This document shows positions 19,752-43,100 of a stretch of DNA of 64,000 nt, piece by piece. The translations under genes and the position numbers were made by a program. The notes under the pieces are model-generated. The model ran no database searches. It was not told where the DNA came from and saw only the letters and a program-made list of their open reading frames with translations. This DNA is from Owenia fusiformis (Eukaryota; Annelida; Polychaeta; Sabellida; Oweniidae). The DNA lies in assembly GCA_903813345.2 (NCBI GenBank), contig CAIIXF020000005.1, positions 2,292,001 through 2,356,000 of the forward strand, in the 5' to 3' direction. Numbering within the stretch: the stretch's first letter is position 1; each line of letters opens with the position of its first letter.

Positions 19752-20690
19752 TACTAGGATTATCTGAGAAGTCGTGGATTATTTTGGTAATTGAATGAGT
19801 TGAATAATTTATTCCTTGACATCACCAAAGCTGAAAACGATGGACAAAACGATGGATATATAACCCGGGATATATAACAATAATGGACGTATAACACCAG
19901 AAACACATTCACTGGGGGGTATCGTGATGCAACAACACCGTGTTGTTGCATCAAGATGGCCAGACTTCCGGTGATAGATTTTCGTACGATATTTTGTTTC
20001 CCCAATTTAAACCCATTTCTAGGACGAGTTTCTCAATAACCATACACGTGCAGTTAGCGCACGATATATATTTAAAGAAACTGTCATGAGTATACATGTA
20101 GCATCATCAACAAGCAATAAGTTCACTGTTTTAGTTCCTCACTATTGATGCAACAACACCAAACCGAAGATGCAACAACACTCCTCTAGATTTAAGCAAT
20201 GATGCAGCAACACCAACTAATTTCAGAAGACCATAAATCTCGAGAGGAACAGATTTTAAAGCTACTATTGCAACACCGTTACCCATTACCCATTTGTGTT
20301 CTTCTCAAGGCATTCTGAAATACACGTCCTGCGGGCGAAGATATGTATTTTCAAAAATTTATTCTTTTAAATACTAGTATCATAATGTACTGGACGTTGT
20401 TCTATGACATAGTTCAATCGCCTTTAACATGGCAAGCTATAGTTACCCAATCTATTTTCATAAACCACTGTTCCATAGCTTGATGACCCTGACTCCAGTT
20501 AGTATCATTCAAAATGGTGGACAAACATCTTTCGTTCTCGGTAAATATGACGATCTATTGGAAATTATTTGTCATCCATCTGTGAAACAGTGATAAACTA
20601 GATATAGTAGATGTACGTTACCACTGTTTATCAAAATATAACTGAAACAGTTCAAAAAGCATGTTGATGGGATGATTGCTTCATCTATGA

Positions 20691-20720
20691 CATGATATGA
20701 TATGATATGATATGATATAA
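20691..20720 (+). repeat. (TGATA)n microsatellite
   Basis: About five tandem tgata units inside the transposon interior. Confidence 0.9.
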
Positions 20721-21009
20721 TTCTTTATTTCCTCCAATATGGAGAGCCAACGTGTAAAAGCGTCTAATTGACTTTATTAGGGGGGTTTATTACACGTTTA
20801 ATGAAAATCTTGCACGGCGCACAAGTAGAAGCATTGCTCTCTTTGGATTCGTTCTCTTCGACTGAGTAAAAAGGTTAAAAAAGTGATACGATTTAAGGCC
20901 CAAAAAGGTAAATTGATAGGGGTACAGTACAGTAATCCCAGATTCTCCAGGGCCCTCGGGAAATATTATATTGTCTCTCGGAATAAAACCAATATTGAAT
21001 CCCTCTCAA

Positions 21010-21495
21010 TATTTTTTCAAAATTAAAAAAAAATTAACATTCAAAAAACATTTTTTCAAAAGTAGCGGTCAACAAAACCTAGTAGCGGTCAACAGTATAC
21101 AATTGTAGACCTCTCTTAAGGTCAACAGCTGGCAAAATTGTATACCGATACTGAAAACCTTGAAAGTACCGTTGATCGAGACCGGAGGTCGAGGTCAACT
21201 GTTCTCTCGAGGTTTATTGTTGAGGTATACACTTTTGCCAGTTGACCGAAAAGAGAGGTTAACAATTGTTTTGTAAGTCCAAAGAATATAATAATTGGAC
21301 GAATATATAATCGAATATCACGTGAACATATCAAGTAAAGGTATCATATTTTAGCAAAAAATCCCCAAACCGTCGAATACTTGTAATTTTTTACACAACT
21401 TATTTTTTCAAAATTAAAGAAAATTCCAACATTCGAAAACATTTTTTCAAAAGTAGCGGTCAACAGTACCTACTAGCGGTCAACAGTACATATTG
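21010..21495 (+). repeat. Direct duplication (21010-21105 and 21402-21495)
   Basis: Two copies of a ~95-bp segment containing attttttcaaaattaaa and two spaced copies each of agcggtcaaca. Between them, gtcaacagctggcaaaattg and its complement-like partner (ttttgccagttgacc) form an imperfect inverted repeat at 21120-21246. Confidence 0.75.
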
Positions 21496-22195
21496 TTGAT
21501 CGCTCATCAACCAATCAGAATTGAGTATTTTAATTGAGGTACTAACAACACATATGACTGATATCTGTTGTCTTTCCATAATTATATTAGTTATTTGTAA
21601 ACAATTTCCATACGGTAAATCAAGGGCATTTAATTTAGAAAATGTATAATCTTTATCTTTAAGATACAATATCTATGAGGTTGCCTCCCGGTGATTCAAG
21701 ACTTAGCCTATGTATTTAGTTTGCCTTGTATATCCTATTAACTTCGATAAAGACAAAATAATACATAACCAAACAAAATACGTTTCATTCATGACTGACT
21801 CGCGCGTTTTATTCATGTCCCGACCCGAACACCTGGAAACAGAACATAAAACAGTTTCTCTTGTTGTTCAATGATACATTATATTGGCGTTTTTGCATCA
21901 GCACATTGGTGTTGTTGCATCATCGATAAGAAACAGAGTGGTGTTGTTGCATCAATAGTGAGGAATTAAAACCACGAATTTATCGCTTCTTGATGATGCT
22001 ACATGTATACCAATGACAGTTTTTTAAAATATAGATCATGCGCTAACTGCATGTGTATGATTATTGATCAACTCGTCCTAGAAACGGGTTTAAATTGGGA
22101 AAAGAAAATATTTCACGAAAATCTATCACCGGAAGTCTGGCCATCTTGATGCAACAACACGGTGTTGTTGCATCACGATACCCCCCAGTGACATT

Positions 22196-25023
22196 CTCAA
22201 ACATTGAATACTGCATCGCGGACCTTAGATGCAACTTGTTCGTCGTGTACGGCGGTCCAATATCACTACAAATTTCTCATATACAACCTCTAGCTGAGAT
22301 TTTACACACTGACACCCCACTCAAAGGAATACGGATTTATGAGCACAGAAACTGATAAAAATTTATCGCAGCTCTAAATCTTAGCGCAGCATTTATGTTA
22401 TCTCTAGATGATCTTGCTTCGTTAAAATTGTCGATCGCTTGGTGCAATTACCAATGCAAGCATAGATTCGACACCAACGTATCCCCGTGTGGTTGTCGGG
22501 CAATTAGTATAGGAGTCGGGATATTGGTCATCCATAACATCGCTGCTCCCAAGGCTCTCGCCAAACAAGTTGCTGTTAATAGGTACTTTCTATTAACAAA
22601 TGAAAAACCAAATGTGGCTAAGGGTATGGCGGATCGAACGTACGCCGATCACGAATTCATGTTATCACAATTCTGAAGCATTTGACGCACGCACGAAAGT
22701 GATATGAAGAGAAAGCGCTTAATTGACTGCCAATTTGATTTTTCAACGTAAAAAGTTCTTGGAAATTCAAGATCGATTTATTTTGACGCCAGGAACATCT
22801 TAAAATAGCGTGTTTTGATGTTTGTGTTGCACAACACTTTTTTAAACCATAACCTACATGACTAGCAATATAGTATGTATATCCTCGTTGTAAAATGAAG
22901 ATTACAATTCAATATATTTGCATTAATTTCCATTGCCAAGTTTTTTTTACATGAACAGATTGATATGAATTGATTGTTTAATTAATCAACTATAGTAGGC
23001 CTATATGACTACTTAGATCATGTATGTATGTGTTACATATCACAATCATTTAACAAATACATCTTTTTTGAAACGTTCGTGACATTAACGCACGTCGAGG
23101 GCTGGATTGCATTCATACACAAAGTAAGGGAACACGAGGCACTTAGCTTGATGTAATCGCTGAATAAAGCAAAATGAAGATCCGGATATAGATTTATATG
23201 AATCTAAAATAAGAACTCGTAATGCTTTAAATACGATTCCCTGTTGGATTACGTAATAACCCGATCGTAGCAAATAATGAGATCGCGCGGGATCAAGAAA
23301 ACTAAATGATTCATAAATCCCAATTTAGTAAAACAAGCACTCATCTCCCATAGAGTACGATATACTCGTATTACACGTCGCACGAAACTGGGGACAATTA
23401 GAGTAACATTATGGCGTCAAAATACCAAAACAATACAATGGCCAGTATAGGGCGCAATCAGCATTATAACGTCAAAAACGACAAGCGTTACATTTTGTCA
23501 AGTTTAGTCAACCTAAAAATAAGATGCTTTATTCTTATTCAATCCTGGTGAAATTCACAGAGCAAGAAGATCTCGAGGACAATATTTCTAAAATGTTTTT
23601 GATTTTTGAAAAACGGTCAGGAAATCCACTCGGGGCGTTAGTAAAAATTGATATGTATGGTATTTGTGGTAAAAAATCGATGCGTTACATTTTTTCAAGT
23701 CTCTAAAAGCAACTCTTATTCTCTTATTATTTGAAAAATAAAGAAATCGGTTATTATTTTGTAAATTTCGCCATGACAATATTGTGCAGTTAAATTTTTT
23801 TTGAAATCAGACCTAAATTAGAAGGTTAAATAAAGGTGAACTTATTGCTTGTCTCCCTCGCCTTCAAAACCTTACACAATTTTGAAAATCTTAAAAGCGT
23901 TCATATAAGACGATTTGAACTGTAGCCGCTAGGCAATTGTGACGTCATAAAAGCACATGTTTCAATGAATAAAATATGAAATTTTGGTAAAATTCTGATC
24001 AGTATTTCAAAAGTTATCCTGATTTCAACGAACCGTGTAAGCGTGAAATGTTACGCCTTACAGCGTATTTGACGATGTCGGAGTACATTTAACTTAAAAA
24101 ATATGGTAGATCCCATCACACTTTTCAAGAAAAAATAATTTCAGTGAAATGCGAATAAAAAATACTTCAAAATGATATATAATGCATATAGTTAGCTTTT
24201 TAAATAAGGCAGATATTAACGATTAAAGCTGAGATTAGCCCGTATTTCCCGAATTGTCCCCAGGTCCGTGCACGTCATATATATATTGGCTTCTGTTCTT
24301 GGAGTCTACTTTTATCTTGGGAAACACAATTGAAAGCGAATGGTTTGTTATCTTTAACAAATGACCCCATATTGATTAAAATCTTAAAGCATCAGAAGTA
24401 ATTCTTATCAATGCCTATGCAAACATCGTAAAATAAAATAATGATCATATTATATTAATCCATGTGCGCGTTCACATCAGCCAGAAGTATTTGGAAGATA
24501 TAAAGGATATCGATAATTGATTCCGTTCTTGAAAGTCTTCTAGGGAAATTAAAGCCTCCGTGGAGCAGCTTTTAGGATTCATGAAGCGCAAGGAGAGACG
24601 TAATCACAAAGCGCCCGGGTTTTCAAAATTTGCGGTTGAATGAAAACTAATTTGGATAACAAAAGTATAAATAAACATTTGAGGACAAATGTTAGTCGGT
24701 GTGGAACACAAAATTGATTTTAATTAAATACTTACCTTTATTTATGCTTCATAAGTTCATATACAGTATAACATTCAAGAGGTTAATTCATGAATGAATG
24801 ATGCAAGTAAACATTTGGACAGAAAGTTCCAGTGCAGTTGGTACAAAACCCTACTTTGCTAACATAGATCTATATTCATATTGATTTTACTTCATTGCCA
24901 TTGGAACCAGTGTCCGCAGAGTGCGTAATACTACAGTTGACGAAGATAAATGGAGAATATATGAGCATTGCTTGAAATCAAGAGTGAACACATAAAATGG
25001 ATTGATAAACCTCGAACTTGAGA
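22196..25023. other. Non-coding stretch between a transposon and a candidate first exon
   Basis: Two open frames (to 22355, and 22395-22676) look locally less AT-rich than their surroundings but match no family I know and lack clear splice sites. If real, the region just upstream of 25024 would be a promoter or 5' UTR, but no TATA box or initiator could be identified. Confidence 0.35.
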
Positions 25024-25234
25024 ATGCCGTCTCGGAGTGATCTCACTGAGATGTCGTCGATTCAGCCCCAGAACGTTGGACCTAATGGGTTATCTCTATT
25101 TTATAATTTGCCGAAAATGAGACCTAGAAAGTTATCGGTCTATAGCAGGTGCTTCTCTGATACGAACATCTCTCAAATTGGAATCAGAGGCAAATCAAAG
25201 AAAAACAAGTTTGGGTTTAACTATCTTCTGAAGG
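25024..25234 (+). CDS. Candidate alternative first coding exon (70 codons)
   Basis: It opens with an ATG (A at -3) and runs 70 codons to a consensus donor (CTGAAGG|gtaagt), leaving in phase 1. The peptide starts MPSRSDLTEMSS and ends basic and hydrophobic (SKKNKFGFNYLLK). No polypyrimidine-AG precedes it, so a first exon is likelier than an internal one. Phase 1 makes it compatible with the candidate leucine-rich exon at 33305. The product family is not recognised. A small unrelated gene or a chance ORF are the alternatives. Confidence 0.45.
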
Positions 25235-27825
25235 GTAAGTCAAGTTATGACTAATAGTGTAATTGTAAACAGAGATGAATATATTCATTGGTGGCCATGT
25301 ACATATAAAATAACAGATACATATATTCATCACATTATAATGGTTTCTATGGTTCTCGGGGGTTCAAGATTAATGTGTTGTATGAAGAATCATTCGATTG
25401 ATTGATGGGCGGTTCATATACGAATAGACTTATCATCTTGTTTTTTAACCTCTCGCTAAATTGGTATTTTGTATTTTGCAAAGCTCCATCGACGTCTTGA
25501 TGAAAGTAAAAACTATTATTTTACGTCTAACTTTTTAATTGGTTATTTAATATTCTGCTGATCTTCTAAACATATTTTCTTCCGGAATGTGTGACATTTT
25601 ATGTTTTATATTCCCAATTATGTTTTTAATGTTCTCTTGTTTCCCAGAGTATGCTGATTCCATCAAAAAGGAAAATAGTTAGGCTATTTAGAGACTAAAC
25701 ATTCAAAGAATCAAAAAGACCAATCAACATGCCAATCAACATGCTTAGCAACCTAAAACCATATACTATTTAATTGAATCAATGAAGTTACGTATTCAAG
25801 ATGACACCCGCGATCTTTATGGCTTTACGGCCAAACGAAAATGTTAATCACCGTTAATCAGTCGTACGTAATTACCCGAACGTTATATTTATTGCCAAGA
25901 GTTTATTTATCTTACAAATGAGCTGTTCATTGGTGTGCACAAAATGTCAGACTTTTTATATCTTGAGATTAGGTTCAATTAACCATTCACCGATGTGTAT
26001 AGGTATTGAGAGGATGGGGGCAGTTTAGGACAGAGCTCCTGGCGATCAGCCCGGTCCTCATTGTTGGTTCCACGTTTGTCTGCCTTGATGCTTGCTGGAG
26101 CGAGGTGTCGACGCTTTGACATAAAAAGCACAATCAGTTGATGTATTGCATGTCAAGAAACTTGAGGAGGATTAATTCAATACCATCTAGTAAAGTTCAA
26201 AATTCCTTCTGATTGGTGCACGTCAATGAAGGTTGTATGCTTTCAATGTTCGTAACATCTTCACTTCATCGCCTGAATTCTCAATTTCCTTGGAGTCCAC
26301 AAAGATTATCCGAACAGCCATTAATTCACCATTTCAAAGTTTGAATAAAAAACGATTAACAGTTTGGTGGTGAAAGTACGATGAAATGACATTTGAAAAA
26401 GTTGTCACGCACCCTCGGGGGGAAAACTCTCTGAATAGATGGTAAATGATGGCTAACTAATCTGCACGCGAACCATCCAACTGTAACAGTTTTAAAAGTT
26501 GTCTTTGAAGCATCCGAACATCCCATAACATGCTACACTTCGTAAGCTAGCTTCTCACTGAATAAACACTGATATGAAGATGAGAACGTAAACCACTCAA
26601 GTATTCTCAACCGGCCAAGACGACCCAACCTAACCCTAGTACTCAGTCATGCATTTGTTTTACCCAGAAGAGTTGAACAGCACCTCTGATTCAGTCACCA
26701 AAGCATAGAAGTGAACGGCTCCTAGTTTATGGTGACCATGACCTCTATTCCTATTATTTCAGATTAGAATGTCTAGTTCTGTACATTCCGCTAAATTTAT
26801 TGGACAAGGATTATGATATAATATGTTACATACAGCTTGTTTTACTTATATGTTCAATTTGATTTAATTAAGCAATGATTTGATATAAGACCAATGGAGC
26901 ACTAGATGCACTTTTTATTAGATAGCCAGTTCTCTACCATTTTCATTCTTTGACTTCTGAAAGATAGTTTCGTCTACAGAACTAAACTTCTGTGTTTTAC
27001 CAGTGTCCATGATGGAGCATGTTTTGTAAGTTACTGTACTTTTTGACTCAACAGCAGGCAGATTATCATCAAACGTTCACAACAAAATTCACATTTAGTG
27101 AACTAAAATTCTGAAATTTCAATCAGAATATACAAGATTGACAGAGTTAATTAATTTTACATCGGTCCTACTTTTTTGACACCCTGTATTTCATAATTAA
27201 TCATGCGATAAATTATCTGGAATTTAGTTGATATTAGTAAAATATATCTACTCCTCAATATCTTGACATTCAAGGTAAAAGTCCAAGTACCTAAAGCATT
27301 TTGTAGTTGATCAATGACCAGATCTGTCACACTACTACCTTTTTCAGTGAGAATTGAATCTATCGTTTTTAACAAATAGAGAGGTACACAAGAAAATGCA
27401 TCGTTTGTTGAAAAATCTATCGAAATTAAAAATTGATTGAAAATTAAGTTGGCTCCTTTCAGATAATTTTTGAAGAAATGTACCGTATATTTTTTTCATT
27501 TTAGATTGGCAGGTTCGAATGTGTGTAGTTTGTTACTTGCTGTTGAACTGTTAAAGATAAGTTTTTCTAAGAATATTCATTAATATGCCATCATGATGAA
27601 CCAAGTTATCTGATATTTCCTGCAAATCCAGACAGTTCTGACTTTATTCAGTATAATTCATATCAATTCCGACATTCATTTTAATGGTAATTTTCGCATA
27701 GTTTTTGACAAGGTTGCGTTCAACAATTTAAACTCTTCAACCGTAAGTAGTTTACTTTAACGAAACACATTGTTGTAGGTTTCAACACAATCGACAGCAA
27801 AACGAAAAGTAGAAAGATCAACATA
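25235..27825. other. Intron-like non-coding stretch
   Basis: Nothing clearly coding. A less AT-rich patch of about 130 bp at 25980-26110 stands out and could be a conserved regulatory segment. A lone mariner-type end lies at 27157-27186. Confidence 0.4.
27157..27186 (-). repeat. Solitary mariner-like terminal repeat
   Basis: Read on the minus strand it is CAGGGTGTCAAAAAAGTAGG, preceded by TA, matching Tc1/mariner ends. No partner end was found nearby, so the element is truncated or its other end has diverged. Confidence 0.6.
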
Positions 27826-27866
27826 CAAGGGCCGATCCAGAAGTCATGATAAAAATGCTCTAACCT
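27826..27866 (+). repeat. Solitary end of the GGGCGATCC family
   Basis: CAAGGGCCGATCC followed by a gataaaaatgctct match to the terminal repeat of 14321-15358, with TA just before it. No matching right end was seen downstream. Confidence 0.65.
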
Positions 27867-28100
27867 AAAAGTTTATCATTCATTTTGCAAAATATTTTCA
27901 GAGTAACTGGGTCATTTATTTCAAATTCAAACATGACCGTGCTCTATTCGAATTTCTCAACCAATCAGAATGCAGCATAGCCAATATAGAACGTTCTCTA
28001 ATTCTCCATAGATGCACGACCATGCTCTATTCAATCTGCAATTTGCATTGTTTTGAGTGACGTCACATCTCAGCTGCACATCTGGGGCTCTGTCCGGGGA

Positions 28101-28203
28101 TAGCTGTTCTTTTTTACTCCCTATTTATTTTTATTTTATCAACACCTCATGTTTGCATGTACACTGTATAAAATCTGAAACGGGGAGTAAAATAGAACAG
28201 CCC
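28101..28203. repeat. Imperfect hairpin
   Basis: gctgttcttttttactccc pairs with gggagtaaaatagaacagc across a ~60-bp loop. Confidence 0.7.
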
Positions 28204-28313
28204 AAACAAATTCTAAAATTTTTCAGGCCGACTTCAGAATCTTGACAGCATGCGTATTCTTCCTTCATGCCCGTTCCACAGACACGGCTTTTACTTATTT
28301 TTATGTTTGAATC

Positions 28314-28472
28314 GGAATAAATAATGATAGGCCATTCAATATGGTGAAATTCAGCACTCGTTGGACAGAATGTTAGTACAAATGCACTCACCTTCGGTTC
28401 GTGCTTTGTACAACATTCTGTCCAACTCGTGCTGAATTTCACCATATTGAATGGCCTATCATTATTTATTCC
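28314..28472. repeat. 159-bp near-perfect hairpin
   Basis: Arms of about 70 nt starting ggaataaataatgatagg and ending with its complement. They include an exact cactcgttggacagaatgtt-type match around a short loop centred near 28393. Confidence 0.85.
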
Positions 28473-28812
28473 TTAAATGAGTTATAAAATCTTTAGATGT
28501 TGGTAACAAATATTTCTGAAGTTATGGTTGCTATGGTCACCAATAATGCTATAGCGGGACAGGGTAATAATTGCAAAGTTTGTAATTAGTTTTCTTTTGA
28601 ATAAATGATCGAAATTCCATTACAAGGTTGCTTATTCTACAAATGGCCGTTTGAATAGTAACTGTTGTCCTATTCTCATAAGTGTAAAATCATTGTAAAT
28701 ATATGTATTATATAGAAAACATGAAAGGTGATTTCCTTTACTTGTTGAGAAAACAATACAGCATTTTATCAGAACTTCTTGAGCGGCCTTTGCATAAAAG
28801 ATGGACAAATCT

Positions 28813-29305
28813 CAGGCCTGTCAACTGTCCCGCAATTTGCGTATTTGTCACGCATTTGCTGAAGAATTTGAAGTCACGCCAGTTATTTTTGCGTGACAGA
28901 AAATGTCACGCAAATACGCATTTTACCTGGTTATTGTCAAGCAAAAATATTTCTGTAGAAAAATTTCTAAAAAAGTTCGTCTACACAGCAAAAATACGAA
29001 CGCCGAAAAAAAACGTACGCATTTCGTTCGGACTTTTCACGCGAATTACGTATGTCACGCATTCCGTTCGAAAATGTTCGTACCTATACCCCCCCCCCCC
29101 GTTGATGGATGTTTGAAACGCGAGCGTAGCGAGCATGAAAAATTTGAGGTGTTCAAAATTTGACAAAATGTAATAAAATTTAAACCAAGGTGTTCAAAAT
29201 TTGGATCAAGGTGTTCAGATTTGGACCAAGGTGTCCACATTTTGAGGGGAGGTGTTCAACATTTCCAAGTTACTCATGTTAGGTGTTCCCAAGTTGACAG
29301 GCCTG
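28813..29305. mobile_element. 493-bp element with CAGGCCTGTCAACT ends and a 6-bp TSD
   Basis: 14-bp perfect terminal inverted repeats, CAGGCCTGTCAACT and its complement, are flanked by aaatct on both sides (28807-28812 and 29306-29311). The interior holds several CACGCA motifs, a cytosine run of about ten, the string gcgagcgtagcgagc and a ggtgttcaaaatttgga-type minisatellite (about 29148-29285). An 88-bp block at 28999-29086 recurs inside the transposon at 37298-39710. It is non-coding; the overlapping short ORFs arise from the repeats. Confidence 0.8.
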
Positions 29306-29311
29306 AAATCT

Positions 29312-30591
29312 AAATGAAAAGCCAGGTTTTAAGAGAAGACTAGTTAATTTTCAGAAATCTTGTCCTACAACAATGTTTTTCTCCTAACTAAATTCAACAT
29401 AGATTTTGATTCAACTTTGATAGAGACTCAACCTAAGCGTTTTCCTGCGACAGAACTGGTAAACTGGCATTGTAATTACGTTTTTTCTGGTATTGACGTT
29501 TTTGAGATCGTAACCAACAACACTATCGAAGCTATCCAAGGTCAATATGACATATGAAGGTCAATCTCGAGAGAGAACAGCTGTGACATTAAATATAATA
29601 TCAAAGTACTTAGTATATCAATGAGAGACCTCTTCAATCTGTTGTTACGATCCAAGCTTTTCCTTATTTTAGAATTATAGAAGGTAAATAATACAAATGC
29701 AACGGCTTACAACCCATTAGCTTCCATTGTTAAGCATAACTTATCAAAAGAGTGCGATGTATTTTGTTTATGTTTAAATGTTTCTATCAATATTTTACAG
29801 CGAGGATCGATTCGTTTTAGTTGGTTAAATATTTTGTTTATTTTCGTGAAATTATTGATTCAAAGGATCCAAAGTTGGAACAATGAGTCTCTCAATATTT
29901 CAATAACATTTCCCAAATGAACTAGATGTTTTCATTCGTTTCAAGATGTTTTGATGAATAAGCACAGTGATGAGGTGTTGTTTATATTTCAAGCGTACCT
30001 TTCTTGTGTTTGGTAATGGGCACATCAAAATATTTTGGCAATTTGCATTTATCATGACCAGTCTTTGAATGTCCGTTTAATACAAAATACATTCAATTTC
30101 ATTTGAATAATCCGGTCTTAATTTGCCCAGACGTTCATGCATTCTGATAACCATCAGTGCAACAGCATATTTGTGGAAAGTGTCTTCCATAATAATGTCT
30201 GAGATCATCTATTACGTGAGGACATTACCTTCCTAAACGAATATTCCGCTCAATCGTCGTGAGGCTTGGGAGCATTTAATCCCAACTTATCAGTTGTCCT
30301 CAACTCATAAAACATCGAGGAAAGGCGACAAAATGAAGACGAAGCTTGGAATAAGTCTTGATTGTGCATTCTCCCACTCGTTTTATTTGTCCTGGACTCG
30401 ACATAAGTGGAGAATTGAATTGATTTGATGAATTATTCGACGCTTTCATCAATTTATGTTTTTCAATTTGAATAATTTCGCATGCCTTTCAATTTGAATA
30501 ATTTCGCATGCCTGAAAATGAGAGAGTGTGGAATTGTCTAAAATTGAGTTTCATAATTACTCTCATGGAGACTGTTGTCTTCATCCGTAAG
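29312..30591. other. Non-coding stretch
   Basis: Nothing could be supported here beyond a small duplication of ttcaatttgaataatttcgc at about 30462-30510. Confidence 0.4.
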
Positions 30592-30703
30592 GTGTCATTA
30601 CCCATGGAACTGAGTGTCAATATTCATAGTACTGTGTCATTATTCATGGTACTATGTGTCATTATTCATAGTACTGTGTCATTATTCATGGTACCGTGTC
30701 ATT
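30592..30703 (+). repeat. ~22-bp degenerate tandem repeat, five copies
   Basis: Units resemble gtgtcattattcatggtact, with alternating catagtact and catggtact forms. Confidence 0.85.
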
Positions 30704-30990
30704 TCCTGGCCGCAGTGTCATATTCGTCAAATAGACCCAGAATGTTACCCATGAAGAATGATAAAATACTTCATTTCAATGAGTTTCTCAAACTAAATGT
30801 GAGATTTACCATGAGGGAGGTGAAGAGAGAATTCTAGTTCATATTCGCTTTTAAATATAAAACACCGTCCATTGGGAAATAGGAACTGTTCCATGTTCCT
30901 TATTATATTAATAAAAAGCTTTATGGAACGGAGCACTGTAATAAATAAACTTGATATATTTATTGAAAGTGATATAGCATTGGGTTTCAG

Positions 30991-31040
30991 ATATAATCAG
31001 CTAGCATCGATTCCTATGAACTTGAATTCGTTAACTATAA
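30991..31040 (+). CDS. Candidate exon carrying part of a leucine-rich repeat
   Basis: A 50-nt segment between gggtttcag and CTATAA|gtaaag. It reads YNQLASIPMNLNSLTI, matching the N-x-L-x-x-I-P core of leucine-rich repeats. The frame also supplies LGF just upstream of the AG, fitting the LRR pattern even better, so the acceptor may lie further 5'. It leaves in phase 1, compatible with 33305. It is too short to stand alone. Support comes from lying 2.3 kb from a second LRR-like segment on the same strand. Confidence 0.35.
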
Positions 31041-31583
31041 GTAAAGGTTCTGCCAACTAGTGAACATCAAAACTTCTCTCATTTGCTTCTATAAACATTT
31101 CCCTTTTCCTCAAACCCATGACGATGAACTCCACATTGTTATGACTAATTATCATCATGAGTAACGTATATGCAATGCAGAAAGAGGCTATTGGTCCCCT
31201 TGATATTCTTGTTTTGATTTCTTGACATTAATCAAATAGTCGGTGTTTTTAATACGAAAATGTTATCCTCGGGTCACCCGTGTAAAACCAGCGATGTTGC
31301 TGAACTCATTATATCTCCCATAAATAACGAAATAAATGATCTTCTTTTCTCTTTTTTTCATAAAACAAATCCCAATGATTTTTTAAGAAACTGATTACTA
31401 TTAACCCAGCTAGTGTCACTCGATATAAACAAGTGTTGTCTGTTTGGATGTTTTGAGCTGGGAATGTGTAAGCAGTTGAAAGGTTGCTATCAACATTGAC
31501 ACTTCGTATCTTGGTTATGGAAACAATTAGGAAAACATGGATTTATTATTGGATAGATATGCTCATCTTTAAGGAGTTTAGTG

Positions 31584-31653
31584 ATGGAGATATCAGCGTC
31601 TTTGGCATTTCTCATTAAAGGTGTTGATCATCTGTCGGACGAGATAATCGCAG
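31584..31653 (+). CDS. Candidate short first exon or internal exon (phase 1 donor)
   Basis: ATG to donor (ATCGCAG|gtaata), 23 codons plus one base, MEISASLAFLIKGVDHLSDE.... Alternatively it is an internal exon starting after tatcag at 31596 (phase 1 in, phase 1 out). It is phase-compatible with 33305, giving ...EIIAG-NRHLSASNNN.... The evidence is splice-site shape, phase and position only. Confidence 0.3.
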
Positions 31654-33304
31654 GTAATATGTATATATTACTTCACAAGGTTGGTTTAGTTAATTATAGT
31701 TGGGTTGGAATACAGAAAGATGTAGAACCTTAATATTTAGTTGACCCCCAGCGAAATTCTGATTCATTAGAGAGTTTATTAAATGAGTGTAGAGATGCAA
31801 CATGAGAAATCATATATTTCTAGTTGAAGGCAAAAAGAAATGATAACTATCAGAATGGCAGAGTTGTGGTATAGGCTTACTCATGAGTCTGGGCGAGTTC
31901 GATCATTATCCCATCGAGACGCCAGTCCGTCTGTTCGTCCGTTCGTCCGTTCGTTCGGGCGATGAACTAAAATACCGTTCTGAGTCGGATTAAAGTAAAA
32001 AATGAATAGGAGATCCCCGGTTACTCAGGGTCAAGGTCACAATCACCACAAAATTCAAATCTAAAATACTGTACGCAATACAATTAATGCGATGACTTAT
32101 ATTGAGTTATTTAGTTCATTTCGACTTGTGTGTCTTGGGGTCTGCATAATCAGGGTGCATTTTGTAAAATAAGCGAAGAACTTGTGATAATGAGAACTCA
32201 TTATTTCGAGATCACGAACTTTACCATGTATTTACCCTGGTAATACCATTCTCATTCTTTTGATTCAACTTCTTAAAATATAACTTCGTCTCCATACTTT
32301 AGACGTAACCTCTGATGCACTCAGGGTACACTGTCTAAATGATCATAGCAGAACCCAGGGAATATGAACGTCATTATTAAATAGGGTTATTCACATTGTA
32401 CGGAATAATAAGACGATAAGATAATTTCTCACTGGAGATGACGAGGTTTTGATGAGGATATATTGTTTGTTAATGTCTTAAAAGTATTCCAATCATGTGA
32501 TAGATCTTTATGATAGATAAGTCAGTTGGTATCCTTGTGATGGAAAAATACAACAACAACAACCATAAATGTCAATTGTACATTTAGCAACTTAAACAAC
32601 AGGATCACGTGGAAGGTTAACATTCTTAGTGAGCATTAACAAGTGTTTTAAATATAATATATATCATTCAAGTTAAGTGCATTTCCAGTCACTTCTCATA
32701 TCTAGGCTAAGTGAGTATGAAAAATATCTGTTCATCCCATGGTAGTCCAGAAATTCAAGATTAGCTGTCATATATCGGGAGATCCACGATAGCTCGTTGT
32801 CCAACGTCATTATCCTCCACAGATTCCTATCTCTCACACTAATCAATGTCGATCTCGTTAAAATGTTCACAAAAGTTAGAAATACAGAAAACCTAATCTA
32901 GGACATTAGTTAAGTTGTCATTTAAGAACGATTCATGATTTTAAGGGGAGCCGTGACCATGTAATCCATTTGTTTTGGTGGCCACACTCCACTTAGATAT
33001 GTCATATTATATCTTAAATCGTTAAAATAGGGGATTACTATTGGTTATTTTGTAAAATTAGCTTGTCATTCCTTATAATTTATAACTCAATTGGGTATAA
33101 CTTATTAAACGATAATTATTCTGTTGGGCCGCAAATAATGTATTTTGACATCATATACTGGATTCCATTATGGAACAGAATGTTAGAATCTAAATGTGTG
33201 TTTAGATAATTGCATAAGCAATCAGGTAAAACTAACAAATGTGATTTGAAGGGAAAGAACAATGCGATTAACCGCCACTAATATCTGTAATGTTGTTCTT
33301 TCAG

Positions 33305-33357
33305 GAAACCGCCATCTATCGGCATCCAACAACAATCTCTTGTCAGTCCCAGATAAG
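33305..33357 (+). CDS. Candidate exon carrying the core of a leucine-rich repeat
   Basis: A 53-nt segment between a good acceptor (tgttgttctttcag) and donor (GATAAG|gtaagg), entering in phase 1 and leaving in phase 0. The frame gives NRHLSASNNNLLSVPDK, a close fit to the LRR consensus L-x-L-S-x-N-x-L-x-x-V-P. In LRR proteins such repeats build a curved protein-binding surface. The family cannot be named from 17 residues. A repetitive element begins about 75 bp into the following intron. Confidence 0.5.
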
Positions 33358-33431
33358 GTAAGGGAAATTAAAATTTATCTTCGTTACATTTTTTTATGTT
33401 TTTGTTCATTCATTGATTTGTTATTGCTTAT

Positions 33432-34215
33432 TATCCCAACGAACGAAGTTCAGTAGGGATATAGCGAAGCCTTCAATCCGTCAGTCAGTCAGTCTGTCCG
33501 TCCGTCTGTCCGGAAGATAACTCGAATACTAGCCGAAAGATTTTCTTCATATTTGGTGGAAAGATATATATTGGTGAAGTTTTACGCAATTTGTTTTTAA
33601 AAGATGGCTGCCGGTTTAAAAATGGCGGGAGTTTTTTTTGCAGAAATCTTATGTTTTTCATTTTAAACAAAAATAATAAATATTATTATTTGAAATGTTG
33701 GTAGTATTTTCACAACATCTATCTATTTCACATATATCTCGGCCCGTGTTTTTCACCCTGACCCTCAGGGGCCGTGAATGAGGGGTTGGGAAAACAGGAA
33801 TTTGCGTTAATTTTGGGATGTTTTTGAAGTATAGCTTTATTATACTCAATGAAAGGCAATTTAGAGTAGATTGCAAATTTTGTATCGTTTTCTGATTCGG
33901 GCCTCGAAAAATTCAAAATGGCCGCTTAATGTGGGATTTCGCAATTATTTTCTGATCTCTTAAAAGTATGGCTATATTATACTCAACTTGAAGGAATTTC
34001 AGAGTAGATCACAATTATGGCATTGTTTTTCTGATTTGTGCCTCTGAAAATTCAAAATGGCTGCCTAGAGCAAGAATTCGCCATTACTTGGAGTTATCTT
34101 GAAAGTATGGTTACATGATATTGCAATGATCTCAAATATTTATTGAATGGAAGAGTAGAGGGTAAATGTTACATTGTGACTGTACAGGTTCATGATTTAT
34201 AGTGTTCGTTGGGAT
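33432..34215. mobile_element. ~784-bp repetitive element with 12-bp inverted ends
   Basis: ATCCCAACGAAC at the left and its complement at the right. The interior has a GTCA/GTCCGTCT microsatellite (33477-33512) and two to three diverged copies of a ~135-bp unit (tatactcaa...attcaaaatggc, 33827-34120). The flanking bases match only partly (ttgcttatt against ttgctactc), so target duplication is uncertain. Confidence 0.55.
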
Positions 34216-34474
34216 TTGCTACTCCGTGGAGTTGCCGTTTTTCTAGTTTACACATTTCTTGATAGAATGCCTTGGACTGCTCTCCTGTAAGACTGTAATG
34301 AAATAGCAAAATATAGATTTATGGTTATACAACATGGGTTCAATACTTACATGTATCTCATATGTGAGAGACGTTTCAACGTATATCATACAGAAGTCAA
34401 GTGTCAACTGAGCTAACGCTGACTTGATCTAGTAAAACACTGGACAGAATCTGTGCAATTATCCGGATGCAGAC

Positions 34475-34546
34475 TACCTTTTGCATTCGTTGACTTCGCC
34501 TCTTTAAAGAAAGCTTAGTTTATTTCTAAACTCTGCACGCAGGGTA
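34475..34546 (-). mobile_element. Ultra-short element, family B copy 1 (72 bp)
   Basis: Reads on the minus strand from TACCCTGCGTGCAGAG to AAAGGTA. The flanking 9-mers gatgcagac and gatgcagat agree at 8 of 9 positions. It lies in inverted orientation to copy 2, 391 bp away. Confidence 0.75.
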
Positions 34547-34937
34547 GATGCAGATAAAGTATAGATAGAAAGATGGCGATGTAGTGGAAGATTGATGACT
34601 GGATTATATCTAAAAGAGATTATTGACGCCATCTATCAGATGATGTATAGGTATTTGTCTGATAACTTCGGACGGAAACATTTAAGTGTCGCCGCTAATA
34701 GAGATACATACTGTTATAAGCCAGTGTATTTCATCAATCATAAAATATATTGATGGATCGAGATGGTTGAGATATTGGATGCAGGTGGAACAAATTGTCA
34801 TACTGATGAAAATCGATGTTATGAACGGGCATCTCTTTTATATTAGGTGACTACATATTGAAATGGAAATAGTCGTGAGAAATAAAAGCGGAGGATTACC
34901 CTTTAATTCATGATGTGCATGGCTGATTCTTGACTGC

Positions 34938-35024
34938 TACCCTGCGTGCAGAGTCTAGTTATAAACTAACGAAGACGATTGAAGCTCACTTTTAATCAGC
35001 GAAGTAGAATGAATGCAGAGGGTA
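34938..35024 (+). mobile_element. Ultra-short element, family B copy 2 (87 bp)
   Basis: TACCCTGCGTGCAGAGTCTA at the start, gaatgcagagggta at the end. The flanking 9-mers cttgactgc and ctagactgc agree at 8 of 9 positions. Confidence 0.8.
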
Positions 35025-35667
35025 CTAGACTGCTTTAATACAGGTTTAATCGTACGGTGTCCTACCCAGGTGCAAATACTCGTAATAAATGGACCTAAAT
35101 GTTTTCATCCCACACTACGTAAATAGACAACAACCTAGTCACGCAAGAGTTATTTACTATAGTTTACCCGAAAGTCGCATATAACATTTATTACAAAAAC
35201 CAATTATACTAGAGCAGCTAGTCAAACTTAACAAAAAGTAATGATATACGTTGTTCTAAATGCTCCTGAGACCCTGTACAGTGTAGATTGAGTGCAAGAG
35301 CTAATTGCGAGGTTCTATCCTTAGGGATGACTTCATCTACTTTATCATACTTCCTTCTATTTGGATTCCATCTCTCGTAAAGACAGTCTCTGACGAGATA
35401 AGTAAATGCTCCGTAATATACCGGGTAATATACATTTGAATGATCAGAGAAATGAAAGCCCGGATGTTATCTTGATAGATGATTTGTATATCTACCTACT
35501 CGATCCTCCTAATCACATTTAATTGGCTGGTCAATCTCCTGAATAACCACCTATTTGTTTTTGTCGTGCTTGATTGAAATGTTTCTGTATTTTAAGATCT
35601 TTCATCTCAACTTATATTTCTAATGTGGCATCTATGGAAGTGACAATAGCATAAAATGTCTGATATA

Positions 35668-36180
35668 CAGGGTGACACAAAAATGACACCCACTAATTTT
35701 GTAACAACTTTCTTAATAAGCAAGGAATCCTCCTGATTTTTTTATGTGAATATGGAAAAGTTGGTTTGCTTGCATAGCATCACGTTTTCCGTGGAGGCAT
35801 GCTCTGATACGATATCATTAAAAAAATGTAAATTAGAAAGACTGTCTTTTCTAAAATTTATCTCATAAGCGACTCAGTTCAACAAATTTGACATTTTTTT
35901 CGAAAAATGGGTAGATTTGACATATTGTTGATTCTATATGTGAAGGCAATCCAGAAATGACTCAAATGATGACCAAGACGAAATTTTTGAACAATTTTTG
36001 ACAGTTTCAACCAGAGCTTGCCTGGACGGAAAAGTGATATCTCTAAATTTGAAAGCTGTTAATGCTATCCAAGAACATCTTCCATTGAACATTATATCTA
36101 CACATAAAAATCAAGAAGATTCCTTAATTATTGAGAAAGTTATTCCGAAATTAGTGGATGGCATTTTTTGTGTCACCCTG
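35668..36180. mobile_element. 513-bp fold-back element, CAGGGTGACAC ends
   Basis: Inverted arms of about 80 bp begin CAGGGTGACACAAAAA. TA lies on the left (35666-35667) and TT on the right, a mutated TA duplication at best. There is no coding capacity; the ORF overlapping its right half is fortuitous. It belongs with mariner-type miniature elements. Confidence 0.75.
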
Positions 36181-36464
36181 TTTGAAAATTTCGGGCTATA
36201 AAGGCATTAAAACAATCACACTTAATATCTGTTGCAATTTTTTCCATCAGATGAGCTGATATCACAGAATAGAATATCAGAGCATGTTACTTACATACTG
36301 TTAAACCAGTGCAATTCTAGATTCAGCCATAAACGAATTTTATTTGATGGGTCAAGGTGTGTTCTTAATAAACAGAAAGATGCGATAATTATTATGTTTC
36401 GATGAACTTTGAAAGGCGGGCATGTCTTAAATGAAAAAGGTATTGTCAAGATGAAGAAATCCAT

Positions 36465-36562
36465 AGCCTTGCCCATGTCTGTTTTATTTTTTACTTATCT
36501 TGATTTTCAATTATATATGTAAAAAATAAAGAAAAATAAAAGACACAGTCCCGGGCAAGGCT
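36465..36562. repeat. ~98-bp imperfect hairpin
   Basis: agccttgcccatgtctgttt near 36465 pairs imperfectly with aaaagacacagtcccgggca and aggct at 36536-36562. The A/T-rich middle also pairs (attttttac with gtaaaaaat). Confidence 0.7.
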
Positions 36563-37297
36563 AAGAAGCCCACTGTACCAGAACTTCATAATCGCACAGG
36601 TGGTTTGCAGCATTTCGTGTTATTAGAGCAATTGTTTCTTGAAAGAGCATGTTGACCTCTATGACTAGCCTGTAAATCGTACATGTGTTTGTAATCAGCG
36701 GGTTTCTGAGGAAAACAGACACTTAATTGAACTTATTCCAATCTACTCTGCTAAACTAATATAAGGCAAGTGTAAATAAATATAATGTTAATGTTCTCTC
36801 GTAACCATTTCATACCACATGATAAATAAAATTAATGCGGCATTTATGGAAAATTAACTGTGATTTTAGCATATTTCCTCCATAAGAAAAATCCTTTATT
36901 ATATCGTGCATAATTTTAAGGAGGATTTTGAGAATATCAGAAAATAAAAGAGTCTTCTCAGATTTCTATACATGCCTCAAAAACAAAGTAAAATTTAATT
37001 ACTCGAGCCTTATCTCGGGATACTCGCTTCAGAGCACACGGCGGGTGATCTACCGAGGATAAGTACCTTAAACTAGCAATTCAGATGCTTCTGTGATAAT
37101 AAAGAAATACATACTTCATATGTTAGCAATAATGGAAAATTAACAAGGCAGAATTATTTGACGTGATCCTATCAGGAAGATTGATGTGGTGTAACACGTG
37201 GTGCCTAAGACACGTGTCAGCAAGTGTCCGGAATAAAGGGTAGTGTTTCTCCGCACATACTGAACTCCCATTGCCGTTATTTGGGAACTTTCGAAAA

Positions 37298-39710
37298 CAC
37301 TGGGGATGAACTGGAAACGAGGGAGGTTTTGCCTCGTATCAAAATGGCGGCGCGTGAAAAAATTTCATTCTGTAAGATTTTTGTTTTTTACAATTTTCGT
37401 GCTTTTATCCTTCAAATTAAAACTTAATATTTGGCAAGTAAATAGTTTATAAGTTCCGGTTTTATAATATGATTGCAAATTAGAAATCAATACAGACATT
37501 GCTGAGATATTTACATTTCAATTCTCTCACTTAGGAAACGAGGCACCTGTCTACATTTTGTAACAATGAAACGAGGCAATGTTTGACTTGCAACGAGGCA
37601 ACTATTCTTTCTGTGATAGTGTCTACATTTAATGATCTTATTTCCACCGTTCTGGTCACATACGACCGATTACGTTTTACACGATATACTTAGGTGGTTC
37701 AAAAAGTTTTGCATTTGATGTCATAACTTCAAGGAAAATAGTATTATTGCAATGAAACTTGGTACACATATGTGTTATATATTTATACATTATATGGTAA
37801 AATTTGGGACCTCAATTTTGATTGGTTCTTGAGATATGGTTGCTATGGTAACCAGAGTGGTGGGTACCATGTTCAACCCGAAATTACGTTTTTCCAAACA
37901 GTTTTCTTGCTTGAATAAACTCTTTGTAAAATGGCAATTAGCAGGTGTAAGTGTCTTTGGGTGGCTATTTTTCTTCAAATTCTTCAATTTTTCTAATTGT
38001 CTCTATGACATCACAATAGACAAGTGACACGATAAGTTCCTTTGTGATGTATACTGTCCAAAACGCCGAAAAAAACGTACGCATTTCGTTCGGACTTTTC
38101 ACGCGAATTACGTATATGTCACGCATTCCGTTCGAAATTTTTCGTACCTAAATATTTCGAAAACGTTAAATAGCATTGTTTTGAGTGTCAATTCCAATAA
38201 ACGAGCCAGCTATCCGAGCTATCAATGGTAGCGCATATATCGTCAAAATGTTCTCTCAAATAAGAAAAATCTCGTTCAAAGAAGTGCTATTTTAATATGG
38301 AGCTTAAGCTACACGTATTTTAGAAATGGCGAACGTAAACGTGAAATGACCCCTGGGAACTATAGTTCCGTTCTGGATTGACTTATACAAAGACCCAATT
38401 AAAACAGTTTAACTGATACCTTTGTAATCATTCATGCAAATAAAGACGTTGAAGACAAGAACTAGTTCTCTGAAGATTGCAATTTTACACGTTTACGTAC
38501 ACGTCTCTTTAAAACATGTGTCGTTAAACCTCCCTACTATTCGTACGCAAATGGGGCATTGTTGTTGCTCGAGATGGCTATATTTGATAGAATATAATTC
38601 CAGATACGATAAAAAAATATGACCATGGTAATAATTAAATGACTCGCCTATATTACAAAAATAGCAGAGTCAAGGAGCACACTGGCATTGTCTCATTGGT
38701 GTACATTGGATTTTACTGTTTGTATTCTTTAATGTCTGTATGTTCCTTATTATGTCACTATCAATTATGTTATTCTGCATATAGTCCAACGAAATGTGGA
38801 AATGTTCGGAGTCTGACGTCTGGAGTTCGGCGTCTGGCGTTTTGCGTCAATAGCAAATTCTTTAGCAATTTTAGCAACTTTCAAAAACTGGACAAATGCG
38901 TACCGCTTAGACTGACATCATATTTTACTGTGAACATTATTATAAACTTATTATGACTTTCAAGTATTTCTTAGAATATATGTTACCATGGTAGCAGATA
39001 AATGGACTTATTTGTTATTACTAAGTTACAACACGTGTCATATGTTAATGCCTTGTATTTTCTTAAATGCTAGAAATGGTAATGCATTTGTAAATGAAAT
39101 ATTCATAAATTTTCTAGATTATTAGACATATGAAAAATGTTAATGGTCGATGGCATAAATATAATGATGTCGCTATCGTGAATTAAAATAAATGATGTTT
39201 CAAGGTAGAATAAAAGCAAGCTTTGTTCACAACTGTCTATATCTGCTTCCCTATTCAACATAACATTTTTGCTTTTTAGGAAGCTTCAACATAACAATAT
39301 CAGCAACGTTGTCGTTTCCTGTTACAGAAATAGCATTTGAACAGGGATGCTTCTTTTTGTAGGCCCCGTTCTGTAATAAAAACAAAACATTTTTAATTAA
39401 ATATGGTTGCCTCGTTTCATTCTTAAGAATGCTATATAGCTGCCTCGTTTCCTTGAGAAACATGCCTCGTTTCCTAAGTGAGAGAATTGATATGTAAATA
39501 TCTCAGCAATGCCAGTATTGATTTCTAATTTGTAATCATATTATAAAACCGGAACTTATGAACTATTTACTTGCCAAATATTAAGTTTTAATTTGAAGGA
39601 TAAAAGCACGAAAATTGTAAAAAACAAAAATCTTACCGAATGAAATTTTTTCACGCGCCACCATTTTGATACGAGGCAAAACCTCCCTCGTTTCCAGTTC
39701 ATCCCCAGTG
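37298..39710. mobile_element. 2,413-bp non-autonomous DNA transposon, CACTGGGG ends, 5-bp TSD
   Basis: Inverted repeats of 248 bp (37298-37545 and 39463-39710) begin CACTGGGGATGAACTGG and are almost identical. The flanking 5-mers are exact, gaaaa (37293-37297 and 39711-39715). The first ~45 bp holds an inverted pair of the element's own motif (AACGAGG...CCTCGT). The motif AAACGAGGCA recurs at the inner edge of the arm and about twice more beyond it on each side. There is no long ORF. An internal 89-bp block (38062-38150) is shared with the element at 28813. Architecture, ends and TSD length match 19910-22190, and both read ATCAA-ATGGC just after the motif pair. Confidence 0.85.
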
Positions 39711-39715
39711 GAAAA

Positions 39716-40150: not shown

Positions 40151-43100
40151 CGAGAAAATAATCATATTTGATTAGTAATAATTCCCCGGGATCTGCTATA
40201 AATCACTCTTATATAGCAAGAGGTCTTTACTTTAGCACCTTTTTAAGTAGATATTCCTGAATTAATTCCTCAGTTCACAATCAATCATTGGAAAAATTTT
40301 ATGCCATACGCTCATAGAATATATATTGGGAAATCTACATTTCATTTTATAGTTTAGAGCTACTGGGGTTTCAAGTTAGAATATGATGAAGTGATCAAGT
40401 TAACTATCGGTTCAAAATTCCTCTTTGTATTGCAAGTCAAAGCTAATTTCTTGTCTTGTTCTTGCTGATGAGGATATCCATCTTCTTAGTTGTATATATT
40501 TTCTTGAGGATTCCGTGAACACTATTGCAATAACTTCCCAGCGTCGTATTGTTACGTGGTATCGCAAGTGAAAATACCAACATTATGAAAATCACGGCAC
40601 AAGGTTAAGTTCAGCTCATAAGGCCAACGAATATGTAAAATGACTTTTGGTTAAATGAATAGGTCAAATGACTTTCTTCCTTACTTTTTTTGTTATAATT
40701 GAGAATTGTGTCAATTTTAGTGGGAGCGAAGACAAAATCATTTTAACTCTGCCACGACCATCTTCGAGTTATGAGCCATTGTGAATTAATGTTCAAGATA
40801 TACAGCGACAGAGAGCTCATCAAATGAGCAGTTATTAGTTATTGGGTAACACAGCAAAGGTGAATGTCAAGGACAACTGGGGGGTCAAAGTTGACCAGTG
40901 CTTTTAAAATGCGTAACGCGCGTATGTTAAGGTCATCGGGCAGGTCAAGCCTAAATTTTGAAATACATTTGCCTAATAACCCCGTGTAGAACATATAAGT
41001 GACTTATCACTTATTACTCTTGACGTATAACTTAAAGTTATACGTCAAGAGTAACACAAATTGCGTATTCACTTTTAATTTTTGTAAGGAGAGGATGCAT
41101 CGTATTATCGTGTCATTTGCTTTGTTGGACTTATATCTCGATGTACTTTAAATGTGTTCAAAAGACATGCAATAAAGTAATTATCATACTGTTATTAAAG
41201 TACACGTAAAGTACAACAACTTATACTAAATTGGGAAATTAAAAAAGCACTTTTATCAAATCAAGAAAAACTTTTTATTGTTCCAATATCTTCAAGCATT
41301 TTGGCAAACAGAATTCAATTAAATCAGAACGTTCCACTTGATTATAACATTCCGAGACTGACTTGTCGAGTGATTTTTTCTAATGTAGTATTTTAAATGC
41401 CCTATAGTTGGTTTACTCAAAGGATGAACACAAGGCTTCGTTGCTATTTTTGTAAATTGAGAGACAGAAACATCGTTCTCTCTTAAAATCCTGAGTAATT
41501 GATTAATTTACACTTAGCTTTTCGCCCGCTCTTCGTTTATTTTCCTCTCTTCCTGTACACGTTTGGCACTGTCGTCATTTTGGGTAAATTGCTACCATTG
41601 CTTTCGTGCTTTTCTTTTCAAAATGATTTGTTCAAATGTTGTTGCGATGGTAATTTTGGCAGAATAATGTATCTGCACAAATCTTAACTTTAATTTTTAC
41701 ATGATAGGCTACCTTGACCTTTGCTTTCATGGGGTCATTTGACCATCTTGGTCAGATAATTTTGACTTGACAAGCGTGGTTTGGCCACCTCGTATCATAC
41801 CGTTTCCTTGGGCAGTGACTTGATGTTGTGACTTATGATAAGTTCAGTAGTTTCCAAAAACAAAGATTAAATTATGGAAATTCCTCCAACTTCACATCCC
41901 AACATATACCCCCATGAAGAACATTCAAACAGAATCGTCTCAGTAAAGATTAATCTGGGCAGGAACGATGGCATTAACAATTCGTTTGCTGAATCAACAT
42001 TGTAAATGTCACTTGGAGAATCCAATAATTCCTAGTATGCATAGGGTGTTTAATATATCGTGTATATCTGCTGGAGTGAGTAAAGCTCACTATATATCGG
42101 TACATCGTGACTTGGCTGATTGAAGTGATGGATGGATTCAACACATTGAAGGCAGAGATAAGCCTAATCGCAATGAACGTAGCAGGATCGACATCCTTTT
42201 TCAACAACGAATAACTCGAGTTTTCAGATTTTTTAGCCAAGCCATTTTCTTTTATAACGTTAGCTTAAACTAAATGAGCAAAAATACAAAAACAAATTAA
42301 ATTAGTCTGAACCTTTACGAGTCTTGACGTCGACGAATGTGCTTCGAGACACGAACCTACCATTTCTGCAATATTTTGGAAGGTTTAAAGTTGATCGTTA
42401 AGTAAGATGAATATGAATATATGAACAGCGTATCCTATTTGCGTTTCACACTTTCACTTATTATGTTATTCATGGATAATTTGGAATAAGAATCTCTCCA
42501 AGCACTTGCATTTTATGACTGGATAGACTCTTGAAAATCAGTCGCCTACTTGACGTACTGGAGCATCCAACTGACATTCCCCGTGTAACCCTCTGTGTTA
42601 ATCCCATCGTAATACCGGGGTGGGTTAATAAGAAAACTTCTTCTGATTTATGGTATCGATTTGGTTTAATTTCTTACTGATTCAGCCAGCTAGAGTGGCT
42701 AGTACAATACCTGTATTCAGTATTAGAGCGAGTGGAAAAAGAGCATCAGCATGCTTAGACTCAAGAACGAAGATCATGTTTGAGAGTTCTGAGATGATAT
42801 GAAATCAAAAGTAGAAATTCAAAAGAAGTGCCGAGATAGATGAGAAATCAAGTTGATCTAATTGTTTCGAGGAATGAATGGCGACGCTAATAAATGAGAA
42901 TCGGAGACAATCACGTTTATATAATCTACAATAGGATTAGTTGAGCTTTTTTCATTTAAAAATAAAGCGAACAAATAATTGTTATATTTCACTCAATCAA
43001 GCGAGAGCGTTGTTTTAACATTTGCATCACAGTCCATGAGATAATTAATGGATGTATAGACTTTATTACATTTCGTCGCATCACCATCCCAACTCCATCT

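Follow-up and report, generated by a model that had tools for sequence, protein, structure and literature searches.

We describe two transposable elements in a 64-kb stretch of DNA (C5:2292001-2356000, hereafter the window) of a eukaryote assembly of 498 Mb in 525 contigs, together with the protein that probably moves them. Element 1 (19910-22190, 2281 bp) and element 2 (37298-39710, 2413 bp) both carry CACTGGGG ends. Each is flanked by an exact target-site duplication (TSD), ACATT for the former (19905-19909 and 22191-22195) and GAAAA for the latter (37293-37297 and 39711-39715). The positions, ends and flanking 5-mers agree with an earlier note on this DNA, the original prediction. Long terminal inverted repeats (TIRs), here called arms, are present in both. 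The left arm of element 1 (19910-20161, forward strand) is 91% complementary to the right arm (21939-22190, reverse strand) over 253 nt, one flanking base each included. The corresponding arms of element 2 (37298-37552, forward strand, and 39456-39710, reverse strand) extend over 255 nt with 96% complementarity. An arm length of about 250 bp had been proposed; the length class stands and the individual values of 251 and 248 are replaced by those given here.

As also predicted, a short motif occurs as an inverted pair in the first ~45 bp of each element with ATGG following. The pair in element 1, ATCGTGATGCAACAACAC / GTGTTGTTGCATCAAGAT (19921-19957, forward strand), is a putative transposase binding site that occupies end positions 12-29 and 31-48; 17 of 18 positions are paired and the score is reached by none of 500 letter shuffles. 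The pair in element 2, GAAACGAGG / CCTCGTATC (37314-37340, forward strand), occupies end positions 17-25 and 35-43 with eight of nine positions paired, a score reached by nine of 500 shuffles. ATGGC is found behind the pairs at 19956-19960 and 37344-37348 (both forward strand), respectively, with ATGG at end position 47 in each case. The motif is seen again at the inner arm edge of both elements, where its recurrence had been noted before, and in element 1 extra copies of GATGCAACAACAC lie at and past that edge (20146-20216, forward strand).

Neither window element gave a match to transposase coding sequence; both retain a piece of the same zinc-finger exon. The remnant in element 1 (20242-20298, forward strand) is frameshifted. 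Its sister copies read SREEQIFKCYYCNT and family-1 copies hold EEQIFKCYYCNT at the matching place. The element 2 remnant, FVFITERGLQKEASLFKCYFCN (39321-39386, reverse strand), is identical in 22 of 22 residues (E 2e-12) to that of a further family-2 copy, L039, which has an open zinc-finger stretch FKCYFCNTGNDNVADIVFHMMQQHDGNLSVRKRTLDEKTGSYVYTSHHFGV; the 22 residues from the start of this stretch are unchanged in element 2. In addition, the inner region of element 2 (37551-37689, forward strand) displays 98.6% identity over 139 bp to L084:226-364, and the counterpart in L084 directly precedes a transposase coding fragment, with the gene on the minus strand. The window elements thus seem to have arisen by internal deletion from elements that code for a large zinc-finger/YqaJ protein, which supports the non-autonomous nature proposed for them earlier.

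The two elements are members of two recent, multicopy families, and the genome contains at least five families with the same end design. Besides the window elements, 25 copies with the same ends as element 1 and 19 copies of the element 2 family were fetched. The first 276 bp of family 1 identified 40 scored copies among 751 candidates, with 96-100% identity, and the family-1 end pattern with at most one mismatch occurs at 602 places in the genome (290 + 312) as opposed to 0 + 0 for its reversed control. The family is both large and young. A second pattern, CACTGGGG followed by a 28-36-base gap and TCAA[ACT]ATGG, from which the usual family-1 letter is excluded, is found at 89 + 79 places with 0 + 0 for the control. 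The genome-wide search with the ends that had been suggested finds the elements to be multicopy. Most of the 100 places listed for the second pattern belong to family 2, and a third family is also present. Family 3 (CACTGGGGATCAACTGGAAACGAAGACA...) is represented at 148 + 144 places with up to three mismatches (control 0 + 0), many of which are CACTTGGG variants; all 292 places are treated here as one family. Families 4 (CACTGGTGATCC...) and 5 (CACTGCTACCCACC...) were reached via the coding parts, the latter with 741 candidates at first look.

Common to all five families is an inverted motif pair in the first ~60 bp and then ATGG, placed at position 47 in families 1, 2 and 3, position 57 in family 4 and position 44 in family 5. 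The pair surpasses letter shuffles at all six ends tested, the score being reached by 0 to 9 of 500. The letters of the motif are family-specific: GATGCAACAACAC in family 1, GAAACGA... in families 2 and 3, GTTACCAAAACGA in family 4 and ACACAGACG / CGTCGGTGT in family 5. The ATGG motif in its AANATGGC context resembles a YY1 site. In this the arms resemble those of ProtoRAG, for which an interaction between a YY1-like factor and the TIR is reported to matter for transcription (PMC7481187). Because of this report and the YY1 likeness, the AANATGGC context may, by analogy, have a promoter or host-factor role. Family 5 also includes copies of just 314-540 bp (L062-L080), each made up almost entirely of two back-to-back arms (up to ~265 bp) that form near-perfect long hairpins.

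The flanks of 66 copies were read, 26 from family 1, 20 from family 2, one from family 4 and 19 from family 5, and no row was dropped. The family 1 sample comprises element 1 and 25 of the 41 end pairs among 100 listed places, five long ones taken for their coding content and 20 others picked mainly for shortness, though not strictly the shortest; that of family 2 comprises element 2 and 19 of the 35 other pairs among 100 listed places (three long, 16 others). For family 5, 19 of 22 pairs were used, and in family 4 only L049 offered both ends and flanks. L071 was scored as inexact and L073, with the first base altered, was placed by hand. The duplication is 5 bp long in 51 of the 66 copies, 6 bp in 14 and inexact in one. 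The description as a 5-bp-TSD family holds for the larger class but not strictly, as there is also a 6-bp class of the kind that the original prediction had named as contrary evidence. Exact repeats in 65 of 66 copies compare with only 0-7 per 66 when the flank pairs are mismatched by shuffling. With the element ends held fixed there is no copy among the 66 with a 5-mer shifted by one base, and the 6-bp class is therefore no alignment artefact. Outside this sample, L052 of family 4 has TTTAT on both sides.

Both lengths are present within families 1, 2 and 5. The 6-bp share in family 1 (9/26) is not significantly different from that in the other copies with an exact repeat (5/39, Fisher P 0.06). 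The two length classes share a palindromic target preference, C|ANNNT|G, which is a preference and not a rule. The base preceding the duplication is C in 29/51 copies of the 5-bp class and 13/14 of the 6-bp class, the first duplicated base is A in 36/51 and 11/14, and the last is T in 38/51 and 11/14, respectively.

What links such ends to a gene? Zinc-finger stretches are present in families 1, 2, 4 and 5. When compared with the genome, a 103-aa finger stretch of family 2 gave 95 matches and that of family 4 gave 72, distant intact ones among them. A family-5 copy on C11 combines an end, the zinc-finger exon, an open reading frame (ORF) of 190 aa and another of 1221 aa, all in one orientation. 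The first 716 residues of the 1221-aa frame gave 23 matches, which include the intact homologues L060 (1438 aa, L060:2873-7186) and L061 (1467 aa, L061:1880-6280) at 29% and 31% identity, respectively. In L084, located on C12, a family-2 end (position 114) is followed by family-2 interior, with 226-460 sharing 98% identity with L042 and 226-459 sharing 99% with L031. This interior runs into a fragment of the protein core on the opposite strand (1086-439; 40.6% identity over 217 aa, E 3e-43). A rough count, taking ~170 family-2 ends, 25 places with the protein, a distance of 1 kb and a genome of 498 Mb, sets the odds of coincidence at ~1% before orientation is considered. In L058 a finger is followed 2.7 kb on, in the same orientation, by 45 residues of the protein N-terminus at 73%, and the spacing from finger to protein N-terminus in the C11 copy is also 2.7 kb. 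Finally, a profile of seven element-borne fingers, run over 3267 ORFs, matched a finger ORF that immediately precedes the L061 gene (E 1.1e-4). It also matched the L060 ORF at its start, with E 0.0016 overall and 0.0093 for the best single domain. The L060 and L061 fingers were outside the training set of seven.

The encoded protein, judged by its sequence, is most likely one of ~1,500 residues that has a C2H2-like zinc finger at the N-terminus, an RNase H-like core and, embedded in the protein, a YqaJ/lambda-exonuclease domain. The Pfam YqaJ family (PF09588) is matched above the curated cut-off in L060 (E 1.3e-8) and L061 (E 9e-6). The NCBIfam lambda-exonuclease family TIGR03033 matches both (E 6e-6 and 9e-8, respectively) below its own cut-off. 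The exonuclease residues Arg, Glu, Asp-Gly and Glu-x-Lys (L060 599-728) are invariant across the homologues that cover them. Outside YqaJ the same applies to DGQ, DxxH and the EA glutamate, and an upstream aspartate, in IDGKK, is invariant in all five sequences covering it. The profile PF21787, TNP-like_RNaseH_N (P/THAP9-like), matches L086 with E 0.0022; the segment alone gives E 3.6e-4 and 21.3 bits, below the cut-off of 24.6. One of five segments around DGQ was matched, and the aligned half of the profile ends just past the DGQ aspartate. Because the half-profile ends next to DGQ, we read IDGKK and DGQ as the probable first and second catalytic aspartates, which would place the YqaJ domain as an insertion between them. 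DxxH would then correspond to the C/DxxH signature described in PMC9587614, and the last catalytic acid may be either the EA glutamate or the glutamate of a C-terminal NxRAxxSxxxExxF-like stretch.

No transposase family in Pfam is matched at the curated cut-off in the coding parts, and of the two alternatives raised by the original prediction, an undescribed transposase is the one that this zinc-finger/YqaJ protein fits. Nothing relevant was found in PHROGs, and viral contigs searched with L060 gave no match. Neither L055 alone nor L060 alone matched anything in the PDB. With alignment A3 the best PDB match was to a designed repeat protein (E 0.0038); it was disregarded because none of its stretches is significant by itself.

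We consider that the elements are internally deleted copies of a CACTG-ended cut-and-paste lineage, most likely moved by the zinc-finger/RNase H-like/YqaJ protein, and assign this a probability of about 0.72. Several observations weigh against it. No full-length autonomous copy of the kind that had been sought turned up, one in which an intact gene occurs together with both ends and a duplication. Over the 17.6 kb examined, the C11 copy shows no 3′ end that could be recognised and, because family-5 ends are so frequent that one beside a gene could be chance, its alignment of end, finger and gene is weaker evidence when taken alone. The family-2 gene fragment is known from a single copy, L084, and the 5.3 kb fetched, which also contains nested frames, did not reveal its other end. 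For family 1 the link depends on the common end design and on a short remnant of the finger (best E 0.0014), the copies of which are not independent. Long inverted ends were not seen around L061, and L060 has only a 33-nt pair (82%, E 0.08). With respect to the protein, PF09588 exceeds its cut-off in just two of five homologues. L087, with a truncated start, falls under it, and there is no match in C11 at E 1 or in the L086 fragments at E 10. Profile searches of the PDB gave no transposase; the full-length profile missed lambda exonucleases too, and for that reason this silence weighs little.

Such a protein would operate as follows. The zinc finger would recognise the inverted motif pair near each end, and the motif copies at the inner arm edge may assist, as THAP sites are reported to do in the long arms of Galileo (PMC3688188). 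Cleavage and joining at CACTG, staggered by 5 or 6 bp, would fall to the acidic residues of the core, with C|ANNNT|G as the preferred target. Internal deletion would give the 2-3-kb forms and, in family 5, the 314-540-bp two-arm copies. At a guess, the exonuclease might trim ends or repair gaps during transposition.

The zinc-finger/YqaJ protein might, alternatively, be an accessory factor, the true transposase being specified by a second, unseen gene. There is precedent in ISL2EU (PHIS) elements, since most autonomous candidates are reported to code for a transposase and a separate DNA-binding YqaJ protein (PMC4482050), and KolobokE is reported to code for a lambda-exonuclease-like nuclease (PMC9587614). 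However, the protein here runs to ~1,500 residues, its Asp, DxxH and Glu beyond the YqaJ domain are invariant, and no other ORF of at least 60 aa on the gene strand of the C11 region reaches 110 aa (on the opposite strand the scan covered the L055 part). We regard this explanation as improbable. Nor do the elements conform to either precedent as families. They share with ISL2EU a coded YqaJ exonuclease, above the PF09588 cut-off in L060 and L061, but ISL2EU keeps it separate from the THAP/DDE transposase and is described as having AT duplications and usually GG ends (PMC4482050). KolobokE resembles the present lineage in that its transposase belongs to the C/DxxH group and is accompanied by a lambda-exonuclease-like nuclease, but Kolobok duplications are reported as TTAA (PMC9587614), unlike the 5-6 bp observed here.

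Three other groups are disfavoured. The hAT5 and hAT6 types of hAT element are reported to create duplications of exactly 5 and 6 bp (PMC12730594), the two lengths found here, but in the present case a single family can show both, and the coding parts contain no detected hAT domain. PF05699 has 138 matches in the genome; 20 of these lie on C1 or in the first 24 Mb of C2, and none of the 20 is inside the 41 family-1 pairs listed for that part. Membership of hAT appears highly improbable. The Transib/RAG-like elements, the other alternative of the original prediction, would account for a CAC start and mostly 5-bp duplications, but in protostome RAGL elements the duplication is reported never to differ from 5 bp (PMC7204232) and 14 of the 66 here are 6 bp. 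Moreover the ends CACTGGGG, CACTGGTG and CACTGCTA are unlike the protostome RAGL consensus CACTWMCAAACKTYKBB given there, and none of the PDB chains matched by the protein profiles is of RAG or Transib type, although the full-length profile also missed lambda exonucleases. A genome search for RAG1 (PF12940) gave 0 matches, with the controls equally silent. On this evidence we do not retain that proposal and give it very little credence. The CMC (CACTA-like) elements have the CACTG end and subterminal repeats in their favour; their duplications are reported as 2-4 bp (PMC4482050) as opposed to 5-6 bp, no CMC domain is present in the coding parts, and we find this the least credible assignment of all. 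Membership of Transib/RAGL, CMC, hAT5/6, ISL2EU or Kolobok is in each case at odds with at least one tested defining feature.

P-element duplications are 8 bp and P ends begin with CA. A deep branch of the P-element superfamily (P, Galileo, THAP9), having the same core with YqaJ inserted, a C2H2-like finger for THAP and 5-6-bp duplications, is a contender that we consider less likely than not. The likenesses are the RNase H match in L086 that ends just past the DGQ aspartate, DxxH, the CA start and long arms with repeated transposase sites, as reported for Galileo, itself a P element (PMC3573991, PMC3688188). Against this, the PF21787 match is weak (21.3 bits, under the curated 24.6) and confined to one of the five segments, there is no THAP match in the zinc-finger exon or in the whole proteins, and P-element chains are absent from the PDB matches. 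Galileo duplications are reported to be 7 bp, not the 5-6 bp found here. Further differences are the YqaJ domain inside the protein, the C2H2-like finger and the preferred target C|ANNNT|G.

Our best reading is that the lineage, probably moved by the zinc-finger/YqaJ protein, represents a new superfamily of cut-and-paste transposons or else a deep P-like branch. An undescribed animal superfamily, in which YqaJ sits inside the RNase H domain between the catalytic aspartates, each family has its own motif pair with a matching finger, and staggers of 5 or 6 bp fall on a palindromic target, we would put at slightly worse than even odds. None of the titles and abstract openings listed from an open-access library describes the lineage, which may be catalogued in Repbase or Dfam. 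If the proposal is true, the transposase architecture would include a resection-type nuclease inside the cutting domain, which might link cleavage with the processing of the ends. In this genome the lineage is of recent age and abundant, and the combination of different motifs with homologous fingers makes finger-motif co-evolution directly testable. Repeat DNA of this kind is probably often filed as ‘unknown’ in animal genomes.

Some relatives of the gene and of its finger merit comment. Family-4 copies L048, L049, L050 and L052 have an open zinc-finger exon (123 to 139 aa) and no transposase match at E 0.01; a finger-only protein of this family could act as a repressor. The open or largely open transposase homologues L060, L061, L086 and L087 are candidate domesticated genes; no long inverted ends were seen around the two that were examined for them, L060 and L061. 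A dispersed repeat at L082, L083 and at least six further places contains a remnant of ~45 residues of the transposase C-terminus at 40%, and L082 and L083 are 93-95% identical. They were not accepted as family copies, since no CACTG inverted ends are recognisable, and may represent an older relative or a captured piece. L085 was also set aside; core fragments are present but a family end was not recognised. L047, fetched for its finger match, is by eye a BCL11-like host gene.

Copies that by length might have been autonomous, L001-L006 of family 1 and L027-L030 of family 2, were rejected as their long frames belong, by eye, to nested elements: a mariner-like fragment in L001, gag-like frames in L005/L006, a reverse transcriptase in L027 and gag/pol in L029. 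Three frames of L001 and L005 gave no match in Pfam at E 0.5. The window itself has, on the reverse strand at 54988-58140, a 1050-aa gag-like frame with a zinc-knuckle-like Cys pattern (by eye), and a very similar frame sits inside a family-1 element on C1 (L005/L006). A 501-aa frame at 10960-12465, also on the reverse strand, resembles by eye the C-terminal half of a reverse transcriptase of the type lacking long terminal repeats (non-LTR). At 41008-41060 on the forward strand, CACTTATTACTC... includes an inverted motif of 20 bases, all of them paired (TTACTCTTGACGTATAACTT / AAGTTATACGTCAAGAGTAA). It is the strongest such pair found when the sequence behind CACT[GT] starts was scanned, and it may mark an end of yet another element.

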